Of a DNA stretch of 64,000 bases, positions 2,503 to 58,246 are shown piece by piece. The notes beneath the pieces are model-generated. The model worked only from the letters and a program-made list of their open reading frames with translations, did not search any database and was not told the origin of the DNA. The first letter of the stretch is position 1, and each line of letters starts with the position of its first letter. Both the position numbers and the translations under genes were made by a program. Source of the stretch: Deltaproteobacteria bacterium (lineage in GTDB: Bacteria > Myxococcota > JADLHZ01). The DNA lies in contig JADLHZ010000007.1 in assembly GCA_020848545.1 (NCBI GenBank), positions 124,001 through 188,000 of the forward strand, given 5' to 3'.

Positions 2503-3282
2503 TCAGGGGTTCGCGACCGCGACAGAATACACGACGATGCCGTTCGCCTTCGCCACGGTGATCGCGGTCGCGCTGTCGCCGAGCGCGCGCGTGAGCACGA
2601 AGAGCGGATCGCCCGTCTTGCCGGCGCCGAGCGCTTTGCCGAGCTGGCCACCGACGTCGGCGGCTTTGTTCTTCGCCGTCGGCGCCACGACGATCCAGCG
2701 CGGCGTCGCCGTGCCGGTGCGCTTCGCTTCGGCGACGAGCGCGGTGGCGACCGTGTCGACCGGCTTCTTCTCGGCGACGACGTCGGGCTTCGGCGCGGTG
2801 ATCTTGGCGATGGCGTTGCCGCTGATCACGTCGCGCACATCGAGCTCGACGAGCGTTTGCTTGCCTTCGACCTTGCTGCGCAAGACGACGAGCGCTTCGC
2901 TCGGGCCGAAGTTCGCGGCCGGGATCGGATCGTTCTCACCGGCGTCGGCGTAGGCCTCGGAGATGCCGCGGATGATCTCTTCGCGCTCGTTCTGCGCGAC
3001 GATGGCGACGAGCTTGCCGCCTTGCGCGATGCCGCCGAGCAAGCGCTGGGCGAGCGGCTCGAGCCACACGCCGGCGGTGCCGTCGCGATCGTGCACGCGC
3101 AACGCGACGACGCCGTTCAAGCGGATCAGCGTCGCGAGGTGCGCCGGCGCTTCGTCGAAGGTCTTCAGCGCTTTGACGGCCGGTGCGGGCGCTGCTGCCG
3201 GCGCGGGCGTCGCCGGCGCGGCGGTCTTTGGTGCAGCGGTCACAACGAGGGCAGCGAAGAGGGCGGTCTGGAGTGCGATCAT
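2503..3282 (-). CDS. exported protein with Ala/Pro-rich linker, unknown function
   Basis: A 259-residue protein beginning with a signal peptide (MIALQTALFAALVVTAAP) and an alanine/proline-rich linker to about residue 40. The remainder is an alpha/beta sequence with no membrane helix. Blocks such as GGKLVAIVAQNEREEIIRGISEAYA, ALVVLRSK and PRWIVVAPT alternate strand and helix and resemble the periplasmic alpha/beta domain of TolB/CsgG-like or LpoB-like lipoproteins, but the match is weak and I do not assign it. It has no lipobox cysteine. The stop is four bases before the start of the dehydrogenase gene, so the pair is likely an operon. Confidence 0.7.
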   Translation of the reverse strand: MIALQTALFAALVVTAAPKTAAPATPAPAAAPAPAVKALKTFDEAPAHLATLIRLNGVVALRVHDRDGTAGVWLEPLAQRLLGGIAQGGKLVAIVAQNEREEIIRGISEAYADAGENDPIPAANFGPSEALVVLRSKVEGKQTLVELDVRDVISGNAIAKITAPKPDVVAEKKPVDTVATALVAEAKRTGTATPRWIVVAPTAKNKAADVGGQLGKALGAGKTGDPLFVLTRALGDSATAITVAKANGIVVYSVAVANP

Positions 3283-3383
3283 GGGCGCGACGCTTAGCCG
3301 CTCGCGAAGATCGGCGCAAACTGGAGGCGCCAATCGCACGGTATTCGGAGCAACATCGCCGTGGCGCAACCGAAAAAGGGGGC

Positions 3384-4154
3384 ATGAACCTCTCGGCGTG
3401 GCTCGTGCTGTTCCTCCTCCCCGGCACACTGCCGGCGAAGAAGCCGGTCAACGATGCCATCGAAGCGTGGGCGCGCACGAGAAAGCTCTACCTCGAGCAC
3501 GCCGGCCGCCGGGTCATCTTCAAAGCCGCGAAGAGCCACTGCTACGACGGCGTCGAGCTCCAGCTCGGAAAGTACAGCGCCAAGGCGCTCGGCAAGGACG
3601 GCCACGACTGCAGCGAGCCCGAGCGCTTCGAGCTCGCCGGCTTCGTGCGGCCGGACGCGCCGCCGGTTTGGCTCGTCACCTTCGACAGCGCCTACGGCTC
3701 GAACGTGGCGGCGTACATATTAAAGGACGGCAAGCTGCGGCCGGACGCGAGCGTGAGCGTGCCGACGGCGAGCGACCTGCTTCCGGCAGAGCTCAAGACC
3801 GCCGGCGAGAACGACGCGGTGCAAAAGGCGCTGCGCACGATCGAGCCGCACTACTATCTCGACGAAAAAGGTGTGCGCGCCGAGCTCGAGGCGAAGCAGC
3901 TCGACCAGCTGTGCGCGCTGCACGGTGCCGCCGAGAACCGCGCACCGGACGTCTGCGGCAGCAACGCGCCGCGCGTCATCGTGAAGAAGTGGAACAGTAA
4001 GCTCGGCGCCTTCGAAGACGATCCGATCGCGACGAAGAACGCCACCGAAGCGGCGATCGCGCACGCGTCGGCCACGTTGAAGGCCGTTCCGCGCCGAGAC
4101 CCAACGCCCGCGGCCGAAGAAGACACGACGCCCAAGCGCCGCCCGCTGCGCTGA
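3384..4154 (+). CDS. exported protein of unknown function
   Basis: A 256-residue protein. The ATG at 3384 follows a purine-rich AAAAAGGGGG run (a usable ribosome binding site) and opens a signal peptide (MNLSAWLVLFLLPGTLPA). The mature protein contains four or five cysteines (SHCYDG, HDCSEPE, DQLCALHG, DVCGSN) that could form disulfides, and a C-terminal basic tail (TPKRRPLR). A block reading PVWLVTFDSAYGSNVAAYIL suggests a compact beta domain. The genes at 287, 1027, 3384 and 18891 are all small exported proteins of this kind, which fits a predatory or social delta-type proteobacterium, but no function can be assigned. Confidence 0.75.
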   Translation: MNLSAWLVLFLLPGTLPAKKPVNDAIEAWARTRKLYLEHAGRRVIFKAAKSHCYDGVELQLGKYSAKALGKDGHDCSEPERFELAGFVRPDAPPVWLVTFDSAYGSNVAAYILKDGKLRPDASVSVPTASDLLPAELKTAGENDAVQKALRTIEPHYYLDEKGVRAELEAKQLDQLCALHGAAENRAPDVCGSNAPRVIVKKWNSKLGAFEDDPIATKNATEAAIAHASATLKAVPRRDPTPAAEEDTTPKRRPLR

Positions 4155-4202
4155 ACACGACGCCGCTCGATCAGCGCGCCCCAGCCTGCTACGCGTCCTT
4201 CG

Positions 4203-4859
4203 ATGATTCGCGCCGCCCTCTTCGATCTCGACGGCACGCTGGTCGACAACATGCGTTACCACTTCGCCGCGTGGCGTAAGACCGCGGCGGCGCTCGGCGT
4301 TACGCTCGACGATCGGACGATCCAGCGCGAGTTCGCCGGCAAGAAGAACGACGAGATCATTCCGATCGTGCTCGGCCGCGCCGCGAGCCCGGCCGAGATC
4401 GCCAACATCGCGTGGCAGAAAGAGTCGGCCTATCGCGACGCCTATGCCGCGCACGTCGCGCTCGTGCCCGGCGCGCTCGCGCTGATCGACGCGCTGCGAG
4501 CGCGCGGCATGAAGACCGCGATCGCCAGCGCGGCGCCGCCCGAGAACCGCGCGATGGTGCTCGACGCTCTCATGCTGCGCGCGCGCTTCGACGCCATCGC
4601 CGGGGGCGAAGAGTGCAAGCGCGGCAAGCCCTGGCCCGACATCTTCTTGCTCGCCGCGGAGCGCGTCGGCGTGGCGCCGGCAGAATGCGTCGTCTTCGAA
4701 GACGCCGTGCTCGGCGTGAAGGCAGCGGTCGCCGCGGGCGCGGTCGTCGTCGGCGTCACCACCGTCGAGCCGGCGCACGCGTTACTCGGCGCCGGCGCGC
4801 GGATGACGATCAAAGACTTCGTCGATGCAGCGCTGTCCGCTTTCTTGACCACACACTGA
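4203..4859 (+). CDS. HAD-superfamily phosphatase / beta-phosphoglucomutase-like
   Basis: A 218-residue haloacid-dehalogenase-fold hydrolase. Motif I is FDLDGTLVDN, with the nucleophile Asp8 and the acid/base Asp10. A cap domain follows (residues 16-90), motif II is the Ser in IASAAP, motif III the Lys in RGKPWPD, and motif IV FEDAVLGVKAA. The order and the C1-type helical cap match beta-phosphoglucomutase and GPH/CbbY-like sugar-phosphate phosphatases. The substrate cannot be read from the sequence. The TGA stop (4857-4859) overlaps the GAAC-N4-GTTC palindrome before the topB-recQ gene, so transcription of the two genes is probably separable. Confidence 0.85.
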   Translation: MIRAALFDLDGTLVDNMRYHFAAWRKTAAALGVTLDDRTIQREFAGKKNDEIIPIVLGRAASPAEIANIAWQKESAYRDAYAAHVALVPGALALIDALRARGMKTAIASAAPPENRAMVLDALMLRARFDAIAGGEECKRGKPWPDIFLLAAERVGVAPAECVVFEDAVLGVKAAVAAGAVVVGVTTVEPAHALLGAGARMTIKDFVDAALSAFLTTH

Positions 4860-4870
4860 ACAAGTGTTCA
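4857..4870 (+). promoter_or_regulatory. SOS-box-like palindrome in the topB-recQ promoter
   Basis: The sequence TGAACAAGTGTTCA is a near-perfect palindrome with the form GAAC-N4-GTTC, which is the LexA/DinR operator pattern known from Firmicutes and also used in several other phyla. It lies in the spacer of a plausible promoter: TTGACC at 4845-4850, 17 bases, then TCATAT at 4868-4873. A start site about seven bases further on would fall at or next to the ATG at 4881, giving a nearly leaderless message, in agreement with the absence of a Shine-Dalgarno sequence. A repressor here would block the promoter directly. Regulation by LexA is inferred; Myxococcus LexA uses a different published consensus. 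Confidence 0.5.
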
Positions 4871-4880
4871 TATTGCCGCG

Positions 4881-7800
4881 ATGATCGTCATCGTCGCGGA
4901 GAAGCCGTCGGTCGCTCGAGACATCGCGCAGGTCGTCGGCGCGAACAGGCGATCCGAAGGCGCGCTGCATGGCGGCGACTACGCGGTGACGTGGGCGATC
5001 GGGCACCTCGTCCGCCTCGGGCAACCCGACGAGATCAAGGCCGAGTGGAAGCCGTGGCGGCGCGAGCAGCTGCCGATGTTTCCCGGGCGCTGGCCGCTGG
5101 TCGTCATCGACGAGACCGCCGCGCAGTTCAACGTCATCGCGCGGCTCTTGAACGACCGCACCGTCGAGCAGGTGGTCTGTGCGACGGACGCCGGTCGTGA
5201 AGGCGAGCTCATCTTTCGCTTCATCTACGAGGCCGCGGGCTGCACGAAGCCGGTGAAGCGCTTGTGGATCTCGTCGCTCACGCCGGCGGCGATCTCCGCG
5301 GGCCTGCGCGCGATGAAGGACGCGCAGGCTTACGATGCGCTCGGCGACGCGGCGCGCGGGCGGGCGCAGGCGGATTGGCTCGTCGGCATGAACCTCTCGC
5401 GCTTTTACACCTTGGGCCATGGCGACACCTTGTCAGTCGGCCGCGTGCAAACGCCCACGCTCGCGTTGCTCGTGCAGCGTGAAAAGGAGATCCGCGCGTT
5501 CGTGCCGAGCGACTACTTCGAGGTCGTCGCCGACTTCGCCGCCGCCGACGGCTCGTATCGTGGCACGTGGTTCGCGCCGCCGGTGCACCGCAGCGATGGC
5601 AACGACACGCCGCTCGGCGATCGCAAACGTCTGCCCGCGGACGGCGAGCGCGCACAGGCGATCGTCGAGCGCGTGCGCGCCGTCGGCCGCGGCGTGATCA
5701 GCGCCCGCACGGACGAGACGCAGAAGATGCCGCCGCCCTTGCTCTACGATCTCACCGAGCTGCAGCGGCACGCGAACCGTGTCTTCGGCTTTTCCGCCGA
5801 GCACACCTTGAAGGTCGCGCAGAGCTTGTACGAGTCGAAGAAGCTCCTCAGCTATCCGCGCACGGACAGCCGGCATCTCTCGAGCGACGTGGCGCAGACG
5901 CTGCCGGACGTCGTCGCAGCGATCGCCGATCGCTACCGGCAGGCGCCAGCAGGTCCGCTCGGCCGGCGCTTCGTCGACGACGACAAGGTGGGCGATCACC
6001 ACGCGATCATTCCGACGACGCTCTCTCCGGATCGCGTGCCGCTCAGCAGCGACGAGGCGAAGATCTACGACCTCGTGTGCCGGCGGCTGCTCTCGGCGTG
6101 GCTCCCCGATCACGTCTGGTCGACGACGACGATCATCACCGACGTCGGCGCCGATCGCTTTCACAGCGCCGGCACCGCGGTGATCGACCTCGGGTGGAAG
6201 GCGCTCGATCTCGCCGCAAAGAAAGACCAGGTCGATCTTCCTTCCGGGCTCGCAGAGGGCGGCGAGCATCCGGTGAACGCCGTCGACGCCGAAAAGAAGC
6301 AGACGCGACCGCCGAAACGACTCACCGACGCCACCTTGCTCTCGGGCATGGAGTCCGCCGGCCGCATGCTCGAGGACAAAGAGCTGTCGCGCGCGATGAA
6401 GGACTGCGGCCTCGGCACGCCGGCCACACGCGCCGCGATCATCGAGACCTTGATCGCGCGCGAGTACGTCGTGCGCGAGCAGAAGACCTTGCGCGCGACG
6501 GACAAAGGCATCGCGCTCATCGAGAACGTGCACGCTGACGTGGCGAGCCCGGCGATGACCGGCGAGTGGGAGGCGCGCCTCGCGAAGATCGCCCGCGGGG
6601 AGGGCGACCTCGCGCAGTTCATGCACGGGATCGAAGCGTACGTGAAGGAGGTGGTCGGGCGTGCGCCGCCGCCGCCGCCGGAAAAAAACGAAAAGGGACC
6701 GGGGACGTTTTCGCCGCCGCGGCCGCGGGGCTCGCCGCGCGAGATCCTGCACGATGTCTTCGGACACGCGCTCTTTCGGCCGCGACAAGAGGAAGTGTGC
6801 CGAGCGGTCGCTGAAGGCGAAGACGCGCTGCTGGTCATGCCGACCGGCGCCGGCAAGTCCCTGTGCTATCAACTGCCGGGCCTCGTGCGCGGCGGCACCA
6901 CGCTCGTCGTGAGCCCGCTCATCGCGCTCATGGAAGATCAGGTCGGCAAGCTGCAGAAGCTCGACCTGCGCGCGGAGCGGATTCACTCGGGCCGGAGCCG
7001 CCAAGATTCGCGCGCCGCGTGCGTGGCGTACTTGGCCGGCGCGCTCGACTACTTATTCATCGCGCCCGAGCGCCTCGGCGTGCCGGGCTTTCCGGAGATG
7101 CTCGCGCGACGGAAGCCCACGCTCATCGCGGTCGACGAAGCGCACTGCATCTCGCAGTGGGGGCACGACTTTCGTCCGGACTACCGCATGCTCGGCGAGC
7201 GGCTGCCGCTCCTGCGACCGGCGCCGGTGATGGCGTTGACCGCAACGGCGACGCCTGCTGTGCAAGACGACATCGTGGCGCAGCTCGGCCTCGCCCGCGC
7301 GCGGCGCTTCGTCCATGGCTTTCGCCGCGACAACATCGCCATCGAGGTCGTCGAGGTGCCGCGGCCGCAGCGCATGGCGGTGCTCGCCGATCTCTTGCGG
7401 GACCAAGCGCGCAGGCCGGCCATCGTCTACGCGCCGACGCGCAGCGACGCCGAGAAGCTCGCGGAGATCTTGGCCCCGTCCACCGGCGCTGCGGCCTATC
7501 ACGCTGGCATGACACCGGCCGCGCGCGAGCGTGTGCAAGCGGCGTTTCTTTCGGGCGCGCTCGACGTCGTCGTCGCGACCGTGGCGTTCGGCATGGGCGT
7601 CGACAAGGCCGACATTCGCACCGTCGCGCACTTGGCGTTGCCGCAGACGCTCGAAGGATACTATCAAGAGATCGGCCGCGCCGGCCGCGACGGCCTGCCG
7701 GCGCGCGCGGTGCTCTTGCACTCGTACGTCGATCGCAAGACGCACGCGTTCTTCCGCGAGAAGAACTACCCGGAGCCGAGCGTCTTGCGCGCGCTCTTCA

Positions 7801-8510
7801 CGAAGCTGCGCGACGAAGGCGAAGCGCGCGAGGCGTTGGAGCGGCGCGTGCGCGTGCGCGACTTCGACGGCGTCCTCGAGAAGCTGTGGATCCACGGCGG
7901 GGCTAAGATCAGCGACGCGGTGGTCTCGCGCGGCGACGACGGCTGGATGCCGGGCTACGAGGCGCAGCGCGCGCATCGCGTGAAGCAAGAAGAGCAAATG
8001 GCTGCCTTCGCCGAGACGCGCGGCTGCCGCATGGTGCGCATCGTTCAGCACTTCGGCGACGAAGAAGACGGCAAAGTCGCGTGCGGAAAGTGCGACGTCT
8101 GCGACGCCAGCGCATGCGTCGTGCAAAAGACGCGGCCGCCGACGGGCGACGAGCAGGCGGTGTTGCGCGAGATCCTCGCGGCGGTCGGGCGACGGCCGCG
8201 CGTCGCCGTCGGCGCGCTGTATCGCGAGATGTTCGCGCACTTCGATCGTGACGTGTTCGAAGCGCTGCTCGCGGGGCTCTCGCGCGCGCAGATGCTTTGC
8301 GTCGAGGACGATGCGTTCGAGAAGGACGGCAGGACGATCGCGTTTCAGCGGGTGACGGTGACCGACAAAGGCGTGCGCGCGCAGAGCAGCGCCGTCTGGG
8401 ACGTGGCGATCCCGGCGGCGTTCGTCGCGGAGAAACCGAAGCGCGCGTTTCGACCGCGGCGCAAACGGCGGGTGAAGCGGCGGCCGCGCTTGCGGGCAGG
8501 GGGCGCGTGA
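4881..8510 (+). CDS. fused DNA topoisomerase III - RecQ helicase
   Basis: One uninterrupted 1209-residue protein. Residues 1-592 are a type IA topoisomerase III. The TOPRIM domain has EKPSVA (Glu7) and TDAGREGE (Asp103, Glu107). The active-site tyrosine is Tyr325 in LLSYPRTDSRHL, and the closing motif is GLGTPATRAAIIETL near 510-525. A proline-rich linker (593-620) leads to a full RecQ. This has Walker A MPTGAGKS (653-660), DEAH (752-755), TATATP (787-792), motif VI QEIGRAGRDG (929-938), a four-cysteine zinc site (C1049, C1068, C1071, C1074), a winged-helix region about 1085-1165 and an Arg/Lys-rich tail. An HRDC domain and the topo III C-terminal zinc fingers are missing. RecQ and Top3 act as separate partners in most organisms, unwinding and decatenating joined DNA; here they are one chain. 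The stop overlaps the recX start by one base. Confidence 0.95.
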   Translation: MIVIVAEKPSVARDIAQVVGANRRSEGALHGGDYAVTWAIGHLVRLGQPDEIKAEWKPWRREQLPMFPGRWPLVVIDETAAQFNVIARLLNDRTVEQVVCATDAGREGELIFRFIYEAAGCTKPVKRLWISSLTPAAISAGLRAMKDAQAYDALGDAARGRAQADWLVGMNLSRFYTLGHGDTLSVGRVQTPTLALLVQREKEIRAFVPSDYFEVVADFAAADGSYRGTWFAPPVHRSDGNDTPLGDRKRLPADGERAQAIVERVRAVGRGVISARTDETQKMPPPLLYDLTELQRHANRVFGFSAEHTLKVAQSLYESKKLLSYPRTDSRHLSSDVAQTLPDVVAAIADRYRQAPAGPLGRRFVDDDKVGDHHAIIPTTLSPDRVPLSSDEAKIYDLVCRRLLSAWLPDHVWSTTTIITDVGADRFHSAGTAVIDLGWKALDLAAKKDQVDLPSGLAEGGEHPVNAVDAEKKQTRPPKRLTDATLLSGMESAGRMLEDKELSRAMKDCGLGTPATRAAIIETLIAREYVVREQKTLRATDKGIALIENVHADVASPAMTGEWEARLAKIARGEGDLAQFMHGIEAYVKEVVGRAPPPPPEKNEKGPGTFSPPRPRGSPREILHDVFGHALFRPRQEEVCRAVAEGEDALLVMPTGAGKSLCYQLPGLVRGGTTLVVSPLIALMEDQVGKLQKLDLRAERIHSGRSRQDSRAACVAYLAGALDYLFIAPERLGVPGFPEMLARRKPTLIAVDEAHCISQWGHDFRPDYRMLGERLPLLRPAPVMALTATATPAVQDDIVAQLGLARARRFVHGFRRDNIAIEVVEVPRPQRMAVLADLLRDQARRPAIVYAPTRSDAEKLAEILAPSTGAAAYHAGMTPAARERVQAAFLSGALDVVVATVAFGMGVDKADIRTVAHLALPQTLEGYYQEIGRAGRDGLPARAVLLHSYVDRKTHAFFREKNYPEPSVLRALFTKLRDEGEAREALERRVRVRDFDGVLEKLWIHGGAKISDAVVSRGDDGWMPGYEAQRAHRVKQEEQMAAFAETRGCRMVRIVQHFGDEEDGKVACGKCDVCDASACVVQKTRPPTGDEQAVLREILAAVGRRPRVAVGALYREMFAHFDRDVFEALLAGLSRAQMLCVEDDAFEKDGRTIAFQRVTVTDKGVRAQSSAVWDVAIPAAFVAEKPKRAFRPRRKRRVKRRPRLRAGGA
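6685..6711 (+). repeat. AT/GC-stepped repeat inside the topB-recQ linker
   Basis: A stretch AAAACG, 15 bases, CGTTTT, forms a small inverted repeat in the DNA that encodes the linker EKNEKGPGTF. Its core (6690-6705, GAAAAGGGACCGGGGA) is identical over 16 bases to 8996-9011 in the intergenic gap after recX. The A-run and T-run are out of character for the surrounding GC-rich coding DNA. It may be an interspersed intergenic repeat that became coding when the two genes joined. That origin is inferred. Confidence 0.5.
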
Positions 8511-8974
8511 TGCGCTTGACGAAGCAGTCGTTGGAGAATGCGGCGCTCTACTACTTGGAGCGTCACGCGACGACGCGCGCGCAGCTGCGGCGCGTGCTCT
8601 TGAACAAGATTCGCCGCGTGCGGGACGCGGCGCCGGAGCAGGTCGCCGCCACGCAAGCGTTGGTCGATCCGTTGATCGCGCGCTACGCCGAGGCCGGGCT
8701 CGTCAACGACGCCGTCTTCGCCGAGAGCCGAGCGAGCTCCTTGCGTCGGCGCGGCGGATCGGCGCGCGCGATCGCCGGAAAGCTCGCGATGAAGGGCGTC
8801 GATCGCGCGACGATCACGGAGACGGTGGCGATCGGCGGGCGCGACGCGGAGGTCGCAGCCGCGCGCGAGCTCTGCCGGAGGAAGCGCCTCGGCGCCGATC
8901 GCAAGCGTGACATCTCCATCCTCGCGCGGGCAGGGTTTCGTTACGATGTGATCGTCGAAGCGCTCAGTCGCTGA
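8510..8974 (+). CDS. recX: regulatory protein RecX
   Basis: A 154-residue RecX-family protein. RecX binds RecA filaments and limits RecA recombinase activity. The family signature is seen in three tandem helical repeats: SLENAALYYLERHATTRAQLRRVLL (residues 6-30), then YAEAGLVNDAVFAESRASSLRRRGGSARAIAGKLAMKGV (about 61-100), then a C-terminal repeat with ILARAGFRYDVIVEAL. The ATG at 8510 overlaps the topB-recQ stop as TGATG, which signals translational coupling. RecX is normally beside recA; recA is not in this window. The placement suggests that the fusion protein and a RecA modulator are made together. Confidence 0.88.
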   Translation: MRLTKQSLENAALYYLERHATTRAQLRRVLLNKIRRVRDAAPEQVAATQALVDPLIARYAEAGLVNDAVFAESRASSLRRRGGSARAIAGKLAMKGVDRATITETVAIGGRDAEVAAARELCRRKRLGADRKRDISILARAGFRYDVIVEALSR

Positions 8975-9015: not shown

Positions 9016-10164
9016 CTATTCCGGAAGCGCGTCGGACGACGACGGCTCGGCCGCTTCGCCGGAGTCTGACTCGCCGGCATCTGACTCCGTCACGGACTCG
9101 GATCCCGGCGCCCCCGCACGAGATCCGCCGCGGCCACGACGACGGCGGCGCCGGCGGCGGCCTTCGCCGGAAGCGCCGTTTTCACCGGACGCGCCGGCGT
9201 CGCTCGACGTGCCCTCGCCGGGGACCGCATCGCCCTGCGGCGCCGCCGGCCCACCACCGCGCAGGCGCACCTTGCCGTTCGGCAGGACCTCGACCGCTTT
9301 CAATTGATGCAGGCGCGTGACGAGCCGCGGCGAACCCGGCGGCCGATGAAAGCCCGCCGCCTTCAACGCCAAGGTCAAGGCGTCGAGCGTGGTCGTGCGC
9401 GATGGCGACGCCGCCGCGAGCCGCGTGATCGTGTCGACGAGGTCCTGCGGCGACGCGCCGTGCACGGCGTCCACCGACGACAAGCGCGCCGGCGCTGCGA
9501 TCGGCGGCGCTGCGCCAGACACCGGTGTCACGCGCCGCACGTCGCTGCCGCTTCTGCGCAGGTCACCACCTCCGCGGCCCCGCCGTCCGCCGCGCCGACG
9601 TCTGCTACCGCCCGCCGCCCGCGCCGGTCGCTCGTCGCCGCCTTCCGCTGCCTCGGCCCGCGCGTCGGCCCGCGCCGCCGCCGCCGCCGATCCGCCGCGA
9701 TAAGTGATCCGCCGAAAGGTGACGCCGAGCTGCGCCGCGGCGTCGCCCACCGCGTCGAACGCCCGATCGTGCGACACGATCTCGATGATGTCCCCTGCCC
9801 GCGCGCGCCCGAGCCAGATGCCCGCTTGCACGGCGATCCACAGGTCGCTCCAGTCGCGCACGCGAGCCGCCGGCGCGCTGTGCACGAGCACCGCCCCACG
9901 CTCGGCGAGCTTGCGCCCGAGCGATTGGCCGACCGCGCGCCAATTGCCGATCGCCGAGACCTGGGTGACGCCGTGCTGCGGATCGACCTTCAGCTCGTCG
10001 AGCACGCGCGTCAGCTCGGCTTCGTTGCTCGTGTTCTCGACGTCGATGAACACCGAGCGCCGCGGCCCTGACGACACGATGGCTTCCTTCGGCGCCTTCG
10101 CCGGCGCGCTTCGTTTGCTCGCAGTCTTCTTCTTGGCGCGCGGCGCCGCCTTCTTGCTCACCAT
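9016..10164 (-). CDS. NYN (PIN-like) domain protein with C-terminal LOTUS/OST-HTH-like domain
   Basis: A 382-residue predicted RNA-acting protein. It starts at ATG 10162-10164 (MVSKK). Residues 4-26 are Lys/Ala/Pro-rich. The NYN nuclease-like domain follows, with VFIDVENTSN (Asp41), RDWSDLWIAVQAGIWLG and a late acidic strand IVSHDRAFDAVGDAAAQLGV, the order of acidic residues expected for the LabA/NYN family. An Arg/Gly-rich stretch (near 200) separates it from a helical region about 235-315 (SPQDLVDTITRLAA to VLPNGKVRLRG) that resembles an OST-HTH/LOTUS RNA-binding domain. A second Arg-rich run and an acidic serine tail follow. Such proteins usually bind or cleave RNA. A longer in-frame start at 10224 is possible. 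Confidence 0.78.
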   Translation of the reverse strand: MVSKKAAPRAKKKTASKRSAPAKAPKEAIVSSGPRRSVFIDVENTSNEAELTRVLDELKVDPQHGVTQVSAIGNWRAVGQSLGRKLAERGAVLVHSAPAARVRDWSDLWIAVQAGIWLGRARAGDIIEIVSHDRAFDAVGDAAAQLGVTFRRITYRGGSAAAAARADARAEAAEGGDERPARAAGGSRRRRGGRRGRGGGDLRRSGSDVRRVTPVSGAAPPIAAPARLSSVDAVHGASPQDLVDTITRLAAASPSRTTTLDALTLALKAAGFHRPPGSPRLVTRLHQLKAVEVLPNGKVRLRGGGPAAPQGDAVPGEGTSSDAGASGENGASGEGRRRRRRRRGRGGSRAGAPGSESVTESDAGESDSGEAAEPSSSDALPE

Positions 10165-10222
10165 GGCGGCCCTTCTTCCACACGTGCCTACGCCGCGTCG
10201 ATGGTGGCGCGCTCGTTCGGCC

Positions 10223-10519
10223 ATGGTGCCCTACTCCGTCTTGCCCCAGGACACGATCATGCAACCAGTGGATCCCGAGGCGCGCATGAGAGTGGGCGCA
10301 GCTCTCGAGATCGAATACCGGCGCTTCTACGGCCAACTCGATTGCTACATTATCGGTCAGCTCGAAGGCATGGTGCAGCACTATCGCCTGCACCCCAAGA
10401 TCGAGGTGCGCCTCGAGCAGTTCGAGAACGGCTTCTTCAAGATCGCCTGGTCGAGCGGGCCCTCGCCGGATGCGGGCCGCCGGCTCACGCCGCCGATCGA
10501 CGCACTGGGCCTTGCCTGA
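10223..10519 (+). CDS. small protein of unknown function
   Basis: A 98-residue soluble protein if started at ATG 10223 (MVPYSVLPQDTIM); the ATG at 10259 (MQPVDPEARM) would give 86 residues. The body reads ARMRVGAALEIEYRRFYGQLDCYI and then VEVRLEQFENGFFKI-like strands, giving a helix followed by strands. No signal peptide or known motif is visible. It sits between divergent and convergent neighbours (the NYN gene upstream, PilZ gene downstream with its stop 3 bp away). The balanced amino-acid composition favours a real gene. Confidence 0.55.
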   Translation: MVPYSVLPQDTIMQPVDPEARMRVGAALEIEYRRFYGQLDCYIIGQLEGMVQHYRLHPKIEVRLEQFENGFFKIAWSSGPSPDAGRRLTPPIDALGLA

Positions 10520-37941: not shown

Positions 37942-40461
37942 ATGGTCGCACGGATCGGACTCGCGTTCTGTTCGCTGGCTTGGCTCGTCGCTTGTGGATC
38001 GCGGACGGTGAAATCGGACGAGGCGCCGGTCGTCGCGCTCGTCGAAGCAGCGGCGACCGCGCGGCCCAGCGCGCCATCGCCATCGCCATCGCCATCGCCA
38101 TCGCCATCGCCATCGCCATCGCCATCGCCATCGCCATCGCCATCGCCATCGCCATCGCCATCGCCATCGCCATCGCCATCGCCATCGCCCGATCCGGCGC
38201 AAGAGCTCGCGTTCGTCGAAGCCGACGTGAGCGACGGCAACGCCGCCACCGCCGCCGACAACAAGTCCTTCGCCGACGACGGCTGGTCGCTCGCGCCCGC
38301 GCCGGCGCCGGACATGCGCCTGGTCGCCTACGATCCCGCGCTCGCCAATGAAGCGCCGGCGGCGCTCCTCGCGCAGCTGCAATCGACGACGCCCGCCGCG
38401 CCCGACGTGCCCGCGATCAAAGAGATCGCCGCCTCCGCGAGCGACGTGCGCCTGCGCCTCGCCGCGGTGGAAGCGCTCGGCCGCACGCCGGCGCCGGTCG
38501 CCCAAGACGCGCTCGTCGACCTCCTGCACACGAACGCCCTCACGCTGGATCCCGAGACCCGCCGCGTGGCCGCCGCGCGCATCATCCCGAAGAAGCTCAC
38601 GGACACAGTCGTGACGAAGATCGCGCCGCTCCTCGATACGAGCGCGCTCGGGGACGTGGAGAAGAACCAGCTCGCGTTCACGCTCTCGGCCATCGCCGTG
38701 CGCGATCGCCAAGAGCTGCCGGTCGCCTTGACCAACAACCTCTCGACGCTCGCCAAGCAACGGCTGACGACGCAGACGACGGCGATCCAGCTCGATCCCT
38801 ACGTGAAGACCTCGCTGCGCCAGCAGATCGCGGTCGCGCCAACGACGCTCGCGCTCGCTCCCTCGGCCGCGCTCGCGACGCCGGTCACCGCTGCGCCGAT
38901 CACCGCGGCTCCCGCCACGACTTACACGATCGCCCCCATCTTCGTCCCGATCGATTGGACGCTGCTCCTCAAGTGGCGTTGCAAACGCGCCGACGGCACC
39001 ACGTGCACCGCCGCTGATCGGGCGAACACCGGCCTGCGCCAGATCGTGCTCCTCCCCGCCGGCTACGCCGCGAGCGACGAAGCCACGTTCTGGACCGACT
39101 TCGATCGCATGGTCACGCTGATGACCCAAGCGAGCAGCGCCGGCTCGTCGTGGAGCGTGCAGAAGAAGAACCAGCTCCTGTTCATCGGCTACTTCCTGCC
39201 GAGCACGCCGCTCGGATCGCAGGGCGCGCTCTTCGACGCCGCGATCCGCCCGCACCCGATCCGCGGCTACGCGACGACGCTCGACCAGAACGCCGTCTAC
39301 AATAAGGTGGCGCAGATCGGCGCCGAGATCAGCGGGCTGCGCCCGATGACTGTCGGCGTCATCTTCAACACGATGCAAGAAGGCACCACGGGGAACGCCT
39401 CACCGCCGTCGGTCGTCGGCAAAGCGTACGGCATCGCCAAGTGGACCCGGCGCGACCTCGACGAGCGCGGCGCTTACCTCCCGGTGCACGAGCTCGCGCA
39501 CGCCGGCCTGAACTTCCTCGACGAGTACGTGGAGCAAGGTTTTCAGGACGTCGACATCCGCTCGCTCGACGTGCTGACACCGCTCGTGCTCCTCGACGGC
39601 TCGTGGGGCGGCGCGCTCGACGCCATCGGCGATCTCGTGGGCGTGTACGACATGCGCATCAGCGACATCTTGGCGAACAACGGCAGCGACAACATCGCGA
39701 CGACGAAGGTGCCGGCCACCGTCGACACCTACGGCTTCGGCAAAGAGAGCTACGGCTACGAAGGCGGCATGTTCTTCGGCCGCGGCACCTGGCACATGCC
39801 GACGTCGAACTTGATGAACAGCGGCTTCGTGCAGCGCGGCCCGGGCGACACCTTCGCGTTCGCGCATTCGCCAGCGCAGCAAGCGGTCGTCAACGAAGCG
39901 TTCGGCGCCGGCGCCCACCGGCCGAACGATCGCCTGCGAAACGTGGGGCCGGGCGACAGCTGGCCCGCGGCGTTCGGCTCGTCCACGAAGGTCGTGCTCT
40001 TCGACGGCGACAAGCTCCACCACTTTCACCCGACGCAGACGTACAGCGTGCAAGTCGGCTGGTGGGAGCGCACCTGGTACGTGTGCTGGGCCGGGCCGTT
40101 TCCGTACCCCTGCTACAGCGAAGACTGGAAGACGGCGACACGCACGGTCGCCGCGCGCGAGCGCACGATCCGCTTGCAGCTCACCGCCGCGTATGGCCTC
40201 GCGGGTTTACTGCAGCGCGCGGCGTGCGCCTTCGGCGTCACCCAGATCGAGACCGGCGGCGGCACCTTCCGCCTCTGCGATCAAAGCCTCGACGAGATCA
40301 CCGGCGCCTTCGTGCCGACGGTCGTCTTCCGCTTGCCTTACCAAGAGGTCTCGGTGCCGGCGTCGCAGTGGATGACGAAGTACTGGTGGCACTTCAAGAC
40401 GCACAACGGCACACACGAGTCGGGCTACACGGGGTGGTCGAGCTTCATCCGCACCTTCTGA
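37942..40461 (+). CDS. M64-like metallopeptidase lipoprotein with HEAT-like region and (Pro-Ser)19 linker
   Basis: An 839-residue predicted lipoprotein (lipobox LVAC, about Cys18) preceded by a GGAGGT ribosome binding site. A microsatellite-encoded (Pro-Ser)19 stretch (residues 45-82) forms a stalk. Residues about 110-260 are helical repeats of HEAT type (LRLAAVEALGRTPAPVAQDALVDLL). The middle contains VHELAHAGLNFLDEYVE, with zinc ligands His516 and His520, catalytic Glu517, and the downstream DEY, as in M64 (IgA protease-like) metallopeptidases, whose signature is HExGHxxxxLxDEY. C-terminal parts are beta-rich with several Cys and Trp (WWERTWYVCWAGPFPYPCY). It probably acts at the cell surface on extracellular proteins. 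Confidence 0.75.
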   Translation: MVARIGLAFCSLAWLVACGSRTVKSDEAPVVALVEAAATARPSAPSPSPSPSPSPSPSPSPSPSPSPSPSPSPSPSPSPSPSPDPAQELAFVEADVSDGNAATAADNKSFADDGWSLAPAPAPDMRLVAYDPALANEAPAALLAQLQSTTPAAPDVPAIKEIAASASDVRLRLAAVEALGRTPAPVAQDALVDLLHTNALTLDPETRRVAAARIIPKKLTDTVVTKIAPLLDTSALGDVEKNQLAFTLSAIAVRDRQELPVALTNNLSTLAKQRLTTQTTAIQLDPYVKTSLRQQIAVAPTTLALAPSAALATPVTAAPITAAPATTYTIAPIFVPIDWTLLLKWRCKRADGTTCTAADRANTGLRQIVLLPAGYAASDEATFWTDFDRMVTLMTQASSAGSSWSVQKKNQLLFIGYFLPSTPLGSQGALFDAAIRPHPIRGYATTLDQNAVYNKVAQIGAEISGLRPMTVGVIFNTMQEGTTGNASPPSVVGKAYGIAKWTRRDLDERGAYLPVHELAHAGLNFLDEYVEQGFQDVDIRSLDVLTPLVLLDGSWGGALDAIGDLVGVYDMRISDILANNGSDNIATTKVPATVDTYGFGKESYGYEGGMFFGRGTWHMPTSNLMNSGFVQRGPGDTFAFAHSPAQQAVVNEAFGAGAHRPNDRLRNVGPGDSWPAAFGSSTKVVLFDGDKLHHFHPTQTYSVQVGWWERTWYVCWAGPFPYPCYSEDWKTATRTVAARERTIRLQLTAAYGLAGLLQRAACAFGVTQIETGGGTFRLCDQSLDEITGAFVPTVVFRLPYQEVSVPASQWMTKYWWHFKTHNGTHESGYTGWSSFIRTF
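38074..38187 (+). repeat. (CCATCG)19 hexanucleotide tandem repeat within the metallopeptidase gene
   Basis: Nineteen perfect copies of CCATCG, encoding alternating Pro and Ser. Because the unit is six bases, changes in copy number keep the frame and only alter the stalk length. The same unit occurs at 51501-51548 and 58206-58246. Confidence 0.95.
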
Positions 40462-51481: not shown

Positions 51482-51500
51482 GTCACGACGTGATGGCGCG

Positions 51501-51548
51501 CCATCGCCATCGCCATCGCCATCGCCATCGCCATCGCCATCGCCATCG
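51501..51548 (+). repeat. (CCATCG)8 intergenic tandem repeat
   Basis: Eight perfect copies of the same hexamer found within the M64-like gene (38074-38187), here in intergenic DNA 20 bp after the small membrane protein. The two neighbouring arrays are in the same orientation on the + strand. Confidence 0.95.
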
Positions 51549-58205: not shown

Positions 58206-58246
58206 ATCGCCATCGCCATCGCCATCGCCATCGCCATCGCCATCGC
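58206..58246 (+). repeat. (CATCGC)n intergenic tandem repeat
   Basis: About seven copies of the CCATCG/CATCGC hexamer in the 172-bp gap after the acyltransferase gene, the third occurrence of this unit in the window. The rest of the gap (58247-58366) shows nothing recognisable. Confidence 0.93.

Follow-up and report, generated by a model that had tools for sequence, protein, structure and literature searches.

A predicted single-chain topoisomerase III–RecQ helicase in Myxococcota and Acidobacteriota

Introduction

In most cells, topoisomerase and helicase are kept as separate partners. Can a topoisomerase III and a RecQ helicase be carried instead by a single polypeptide, and what would such a protein do? 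The question is raised by a gene at positions 4881–8510 (+) of a 64,000-nucleotide stretch of a soil-type Deltaproteobacteria bacterium of the phylum Myxococcota (assembly GCA_020848545.1, contig JADLHZ010000007.1, positions 124,001–188,000), called here the window. A first annotation made from the letters alone, the sequence-only reading, had described the gene as a fusion of the two enzymes. We propose that its product is a single-chain RecQ–topoisomerase III, a covalent "dissolvasome" for recombination and replication intermediates, and give this reading a probability of about 0.7. The partnership of RecQ and topoisomerase III as separate proteins, which the first annotation had named, is biochemically established, each enzyme stimulating the other (review PMC8191776); the mechanisms of this mutual stimulation have proved elusive (PMC8191776).

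Results

Two enzymes in one open reading frame

The gene is a single open reading frame (ORF) of 1209 codons with no internal stop. Its open frame starts just 7 codons 5' of the ATG, which bounds the start site tightly, and the protein opens with MIVIVAEKPS, as is typical of topoisomerase III. It is divided as follows.

4881..6665, +, topoisomerase III half, residues 1–595: Toprim 3–132, catalytic core 151–581, active Tyr325 (Pfam, NCBIfam, residue conservation, predicted fold)
6666..6716, +, proline-rich linker, residues 596–612, about 17 residues (linker comparison; predicted local distance difference test, pLDDT, below 50 at 599–612)
6717..7728, +, RecQ helicase core, residues ~613–949: Walker A 653–660, DEAH 752–755, motif VI 929–938 (Pfam, NCBIfam, residue conservation, predicted fold)
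7776..7931, +, winged-helix-like insert between helicase core and zinc site, residues 966–1017 (AlphaFold2 secondary structure HHHEE; spacing)
8025..8102, +, four-cysteine zinc site, C1049, C1068, C1071 and C1074 (Pfam RecQ_Zn_bind; conservation)
8145..8381, +, C-terminal winged-helix (RQC-like) region, residues 1089–1167 (AlphaFold2 HHHEEH)
8408..8507, +, basic C-terminal tail, residues ~1177–1209, at which relatives run on into an HRDC domain (alignment)

Both halves are thus identified in one unbroken frame with their active sites intact, as first proposed. Codon-position GC is steady over the junction, with GC at third positions of 0.75–0.97 in each block, and gives no indication of a frame change; codon bias in the gene is strong. 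The sequence-only reading had named a stop or frameshift between residues 590 and 625 in a relative as the sign of two separate genes: in relatives from three phyla or more, one open frame instead spans both halves. In an AlphaFold2 model of the protein (mean pLDDT 85.8), the two halves are well folded and joined by a disordered stretch at residues 599–612, in agreement with the proline-rich linker first described. In relatives, the linker ranges from 17 to 277 residues, and its sequence is likewise very variable.

The topoisomerase half is a complete type IA enzyme. Pfam places Toprim at 3–132 and Topoisom_bac at 151–581 (1.2e-111), and the scores exceed the cut-offs of the NCBIfam topoisomerase III models PRK07726 (657.4 bits, cut-off 597) and TIGR01056 (565.2, cut-off 515.75). 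Its catalytic residues are E7, D103 and E107 of Toprim and the active-site Tyr325, in S324-Y325-PRTDS, with the neighbouring Arg. In the alignment, the catalytic residues of both halves are invariant over 23–24 fused proteins and are conserved in 12–32 standalone relatives too. Position 105 is a glycine, as it is in 10 of 12 standalone topoisomerases III. The predicted fold matches E. coli topoisomerase III (2o19, E 6.8e-46), which can be aligned with the fused half through residue 612 of about 653; for the decatenation loop, the alignment covers residues 215–285, a stretch within which the loop itself is not picked out. The half is predicted to be capable of strand passage and decatenation. 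The fused protein has no C-terminal zinc fingers, as the sequence-only reading had remarked, and this is nothing special, because E. coli topoisomerase III itself is without them.

On the RecQ side, Pfam finds DEAD (634–795), Helicase_C (832–938) and RecQ_Zn_bind (1027–1074). The Walker A motif (MPTGAGKS, 653–660), the DEAH box and the four-cysteine site all lie where the first annotation had put them, and an aromatic-rich loop and motif VI are also present. The score for the NCBIfam family model recQ_fam (TIGR00614), 383.6 bits, lies above the cut-off of 219.8; that for the canonical RecQ equivalog (TIGR01389), 438.2, lies below its cut-off of 640.2. From sequence, then, the fused helicase is a member of the RecQ family and not a canonical RecQ. 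Among solved structures, its predicted fold agrees best with RecQ 4tmu (E 2.1e-35), as that of the topoisomerase half does with 2o19. The distance from motif VI to the zinc cysteines is about 113 residues in the fused clade, compared with about 48 in RecQs of the E. coli type. Residues 1089–1167 are winged-helix-like in the predicted fold; Pfam RQC does not match them, nor the corresponding region in the domain scan of relatives.

No HRDC domain was found by Pfam in the fused protein, nor in any frame within 10 kb (best E 0.65). The relatives examined, including the sister genome G009, keep HRDC and reach it through a basic linker; its loss is therefore a property of the window copy and not of the fusion architecture. 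The missing HRDC of the sequence-only reading thus holds for this protein and not for its family. A protein can belong to the RecQ helicases without this domain.

Distribution of the fusion

A search with the two halves as one query, as had been suggested, shows that the fusion is widespread in Myxococcota and Acidobacteriota and rare in Bdellovibrionota. A sample of 195 genomes from the phylum of the window yields 98 with a match at E≤1e-110. Subtracting four f3 genomes, whose match is an ordinary topoisomerase III, and six f15/f21 genomes with a standalone RecQ leaves about 88 genomes with the fused family, the two halves being usually in one long open frame. The fusion occurs mainly in Myxococcota family f8, a group of large genomes whose named loci are Myxococcaceae, and also in f10, f13 and f29; in one Myxococcota family, almost every genome carries it. 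A scan of named genomes adds fusions in Acidobacteriota (L066, L067, L071, L081), Bdellovibrionota (L069) and other Myxococcota (L068). In one order of Acidobacteriota, 70 of 120 genomes have the family, most of them in fused form; among 144 Bdellovibrionota genomes, two have the fusion and 13 the RecQ half alone.

A mobile origin was considered and dropped: none of the phage or plasmid records reached 80% coverage of the query, and the eight viral contigs that matched did so in the RecQ part only. Separately, one member of f8 with a reduced genome of 2.7 Mb (G031, locus L035) has no fusion and encodes an ordinary, long-branched standalone topoisomerase III (36%).

Companion genes and evolutionary history

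The sequence-only reading had asked whether separate topB and recQ genes accompany the fusion; the answer differs for the two. A genome search found no second topoisomerase III in the window's genome, nor was one found in five other fused genomes, each searched individually. Besides topA, the window's genome does encode a canonical RecQ, which has RQC and HRDC (contig 12), along with two more RecQ-like proteins (contigs 18 and 31). The one on contig 18 (L003, 15323–16810, −) has a weak C-terminal match to a ComF-like phosphoribosyltransferase (PF00156, 1.1e-4) and is possibly a second RecQ fusion.

Standalone RecQs of the fused clade occur in Myxococcota f15/f21, Acidobacteriota and Bdellovibrionota; they have no topoisomerase half, and no topoisomerase III was found in those of their genomes that were checked. 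All fused topoisomerase halves group in one clade (100/99) to the exclusion of 12 standalone topoisomerases III, and a single fusion is therefore likely. In the RecQ tree, fused and standalone proteins interleave: fused RecQs are monophyletic in 0% of bootstrap trees, and standalone RecQ L163 sits inside a 100/100 group of fused ones. This interleaving suggests repeated loss of the topoisomerase half. No topoisomerase remnants were found beside the standalone RecQ genes. One fusion, after which the topoisomerase half was lost several times, is the simplest account of both trees and is what they suggest, given that counts alone do not separate gain from loss.

A candidate SOS operon

The surroundings of the gene point to control by DNA damage.

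4845..4874, +, hexamers resembling a promoter, TTGACC-18-CATATT, which overlap the box below (weak; consensus scan only, 1 found against 0.4 expected)
4857..4870, no strand, perfect palindrome TGAACAAGTGTTCA, a predicted LexA/SOS-type box located after the stop codon of the upstream HAD gene and before the ATG (sequence)
8510..8974, +, recX, whose start overlaps the stop of the fused gene in TGATG (ORF; PF02631 RecX_HTH2, 1.7e-8)

Judging by this overlap, the fused gene and recX are probably translationally coupled. The pattern TGAACN4GTTCA, which reads the same on either strand, occurs just five times in the 8.0 Mb genome, against none for a reversed control pattern; two further copies precede a gene for an Lhr helicase and one for an SRAP (SOS response associated) protein. 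For the related pattern CTGNRCAN3GTTCAG, the count is likewise five sites, with zero for the control; these include the sites of recA, ku (PF02735) and SRAP. The lexA promoter contains CTGTACACTCATTCAGG and the recA promoter CTGTGCATCCGTTCAGG. A candidate SOS regulon with a common GTTCAG-type box can thus be drawn up on contigs 22, 27, 42, 84 and 134: lhr, ku, SRAP, recA and lexA. Since this class of box recurs in the lexA, recA, ku, SRAP and lhr promoters, LexA control of the fused gene in this genome is likely.

Boxes were scored against CTRHAMRYBYGTTCAGS, which we take to be the myxobacterial LexA consensus and could not confirm in the literature. Upstream of the fused genes of relatives L147, L153 and L157, boxes match at 16 or more of 17 positions, against a background of 2.5% for 15 or more. 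Gene neighbours are shared among close relatives only. The fused gene and recX probably form an SOS operon, induced by DNA damage via LexA, with partial conservation of the box. In the DNA-damage proteome of M. xanthus, a RecQ (MXAN_1950), either the fused protein or another, and RecX (MXAN_6708) are damage-responsive (PMC12288472).

Two of the perfect TGAACN4GTTCA sites lie elsewhere. One (L179:3012) is followed, some 400 bp further on, by a YhaV-type toxin gene (3436–3963; PF11663, 1.6e-61). Another (L182:2983) is 3' of a minus-strand gene (3027–4466) with an NADase-type translocation domain (PF25302) and an F5/8 C domain.

Discussion

In the proposed scheme, the RecQ part would unwind joined DNA and migrate its branches at the expense of ATP, and the tethered topoisomerase III would cut, pass and reseal single strands where the DNA is laid bare by the helicase. 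No nuclease cleavage would be needed to separate double Holliday junctions, hemicatenanes or converging forks. The fused protein would act as the sole topoisomerase III of its genome and would be induced through LexA upon DNA damage along with recX, the coupled gene, which encodes a modulator of RecA. We infer the enzymatic activity, the coupling between the halves, the LexA control and the substrates from the sequence and its relatives; that helicase and strand passage work in one molecule is plausible.

Compared with the RecQ–topoisomerase III dissolvasome (E. coli RecQ–TopB, yeast Sgs1–Top3–Rmi1, human BLM–TOP3A–RMI1/2), the protein has the same two enzyme families, in single bacterial-type versions with intact active sites. 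It differs in being one chain with the topoisomerase first, in the winged-helix insert that precedes the zinc site and, for the window copy, in the lack of HRDC. The same pair is genetically linked in Listeria, with 23 bp between the genes: there, they are two, and recQ comes first.

Several observations weigh against a dissolvasome of this kind, and some of them favour its main rival, in which the fusion merely equalises the amounts of two independently acting enzymes and co-localises them, with no mechanistic coupling. The predicted template modelling score of 0.52 leaves the relative placement of the two halves unfixed in the AlphaFold2 model. With a linker that is long and variable, besides being disordered, the protein need not be a rigid coupled machine. 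Related lineages without a topoisomerase III have repeatedly kept the RecQ half by itself. These three points suit a loose tether; the single domain order and architecture conserved across phyla speak for coupling instead, as does the mutual stimulation of the two enzymes even as separate proteins (PMC8191776), and we consider the loose tether unlikely. Other points bear on the proposed role rather than on the tether. Most other fused genes tested lack the box in their upstream region, and neither recX nor other conserved neighbours were found around the fused genes of relatives (E 1e-4). The HRDC of BLM and Sgs1 assists on Holliday junctions, and the window copy is without it. Its loss there, set against its presence in relatives as close as G009, could mark a specialised or decaying enzyme and not a typical member of the family; with all catalytic residues intact, a strong codon bias, an SOS-type box and a coupled recX, that is very unlikely. 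An artefact, adjacent genes being merged by a sequencing error or misassembly, has a precedent for its starting point in neighbouring pairs such as that of Listeria. It is untenable because the fusion is conserved across phyla, in relatives with one open frame; the topo-first order is moreover opposite to that of the Listeria pair, the codon-position GC is even, and we give the artefact next to no chance.

The sequence-only reading had likened the architecture to that of reverse gyrase, and the likeness stands as logic and no further. Both proteins unite a type IA topoisomerase and a superfamily 2 (SF2) helicase in one polypeptide, and the helicase part of reverse gyrase has been termed RecQ-like (review PMC8185306). 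A machine of the reverse-gyrase kind, in which the helicase drives directional strand passage and an ATP-dependent change of supercoiling, would have the same ingredients. Yet with the NCBIfam reverse-gyrase model the protein reaches 104.8 bits, where the cut-off is 471.7, and the match is confined to the topoisomerase part; the helicase is a RecQ and is not N-terminal to the topoisomerase, so that the domain order is reversed. Identity with reverse gyrase is ruled out on these grounds. The joint is predicted by AlphaFold2 to be a flexible linker instead of an interlocked latch, and the carriers found are not hyperthermophiles, going by record titles. We regard such an activity as highly improbable. 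A bolder form of the dissolvasome reading is held tentatively and is open to considerable doubt: a damage-inducible dissolvasome of one polypeptide, a mesophilic analogue of reverse gyrase in logic, built on a RecQ, in which helicase translocation would directly drive the strand passage of topoisomerase III, and which would replace the RecQ–Topo III–RMI complex across much of Myxococcota and Acidobacteriota.

We found no description of a topoisomerase III–RecQ fusion in the open-access literature, subscription papers and protein-architecture databases being outside the search. Reverse gyrase is the only type IA topoisomerase–helicase fusion discussed in the reviews (PMC8191776, PMC8185306). 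We make no claim to priority, since databases must have contained sequences of the fusion for years. The hand-over of DNA between RecQ and topoisomerase III is still unsettled, and a natural covalent fusion, which fixes the stoichiometry, could ease dissolvasome assays, single-molecule work and structure solution. By the logic of gene fusion, it also predicts a functional bond between RecQ and topoisomerase III in bacteria; the role of topoisomerase III in suppressing recombination there is described in PMC13244152 as still poorly defined. An undescribed fusion in bacteria as well studied as the Myxococcaceae would be an accessible experimental system.

Other features of the window

Next to recX lies an ORF (9019–10224, −) for a protein with a weak NYN-domain match (8.4e-5) and a low-complexity, Arg/Gly-rich C-terminus. 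The window also holds three perfect (CGCCAT)n arrays, at 38072–38189, 51499–51548 and 58206–58246, with 19.7, 8.3 and 6.8 copies, respectively, and a 100% match. The array at 38072–38189 encodes an (SP)n stretch in an ORF of 840 amino acids; all three are possible length-variable (phase-variable) tracts.

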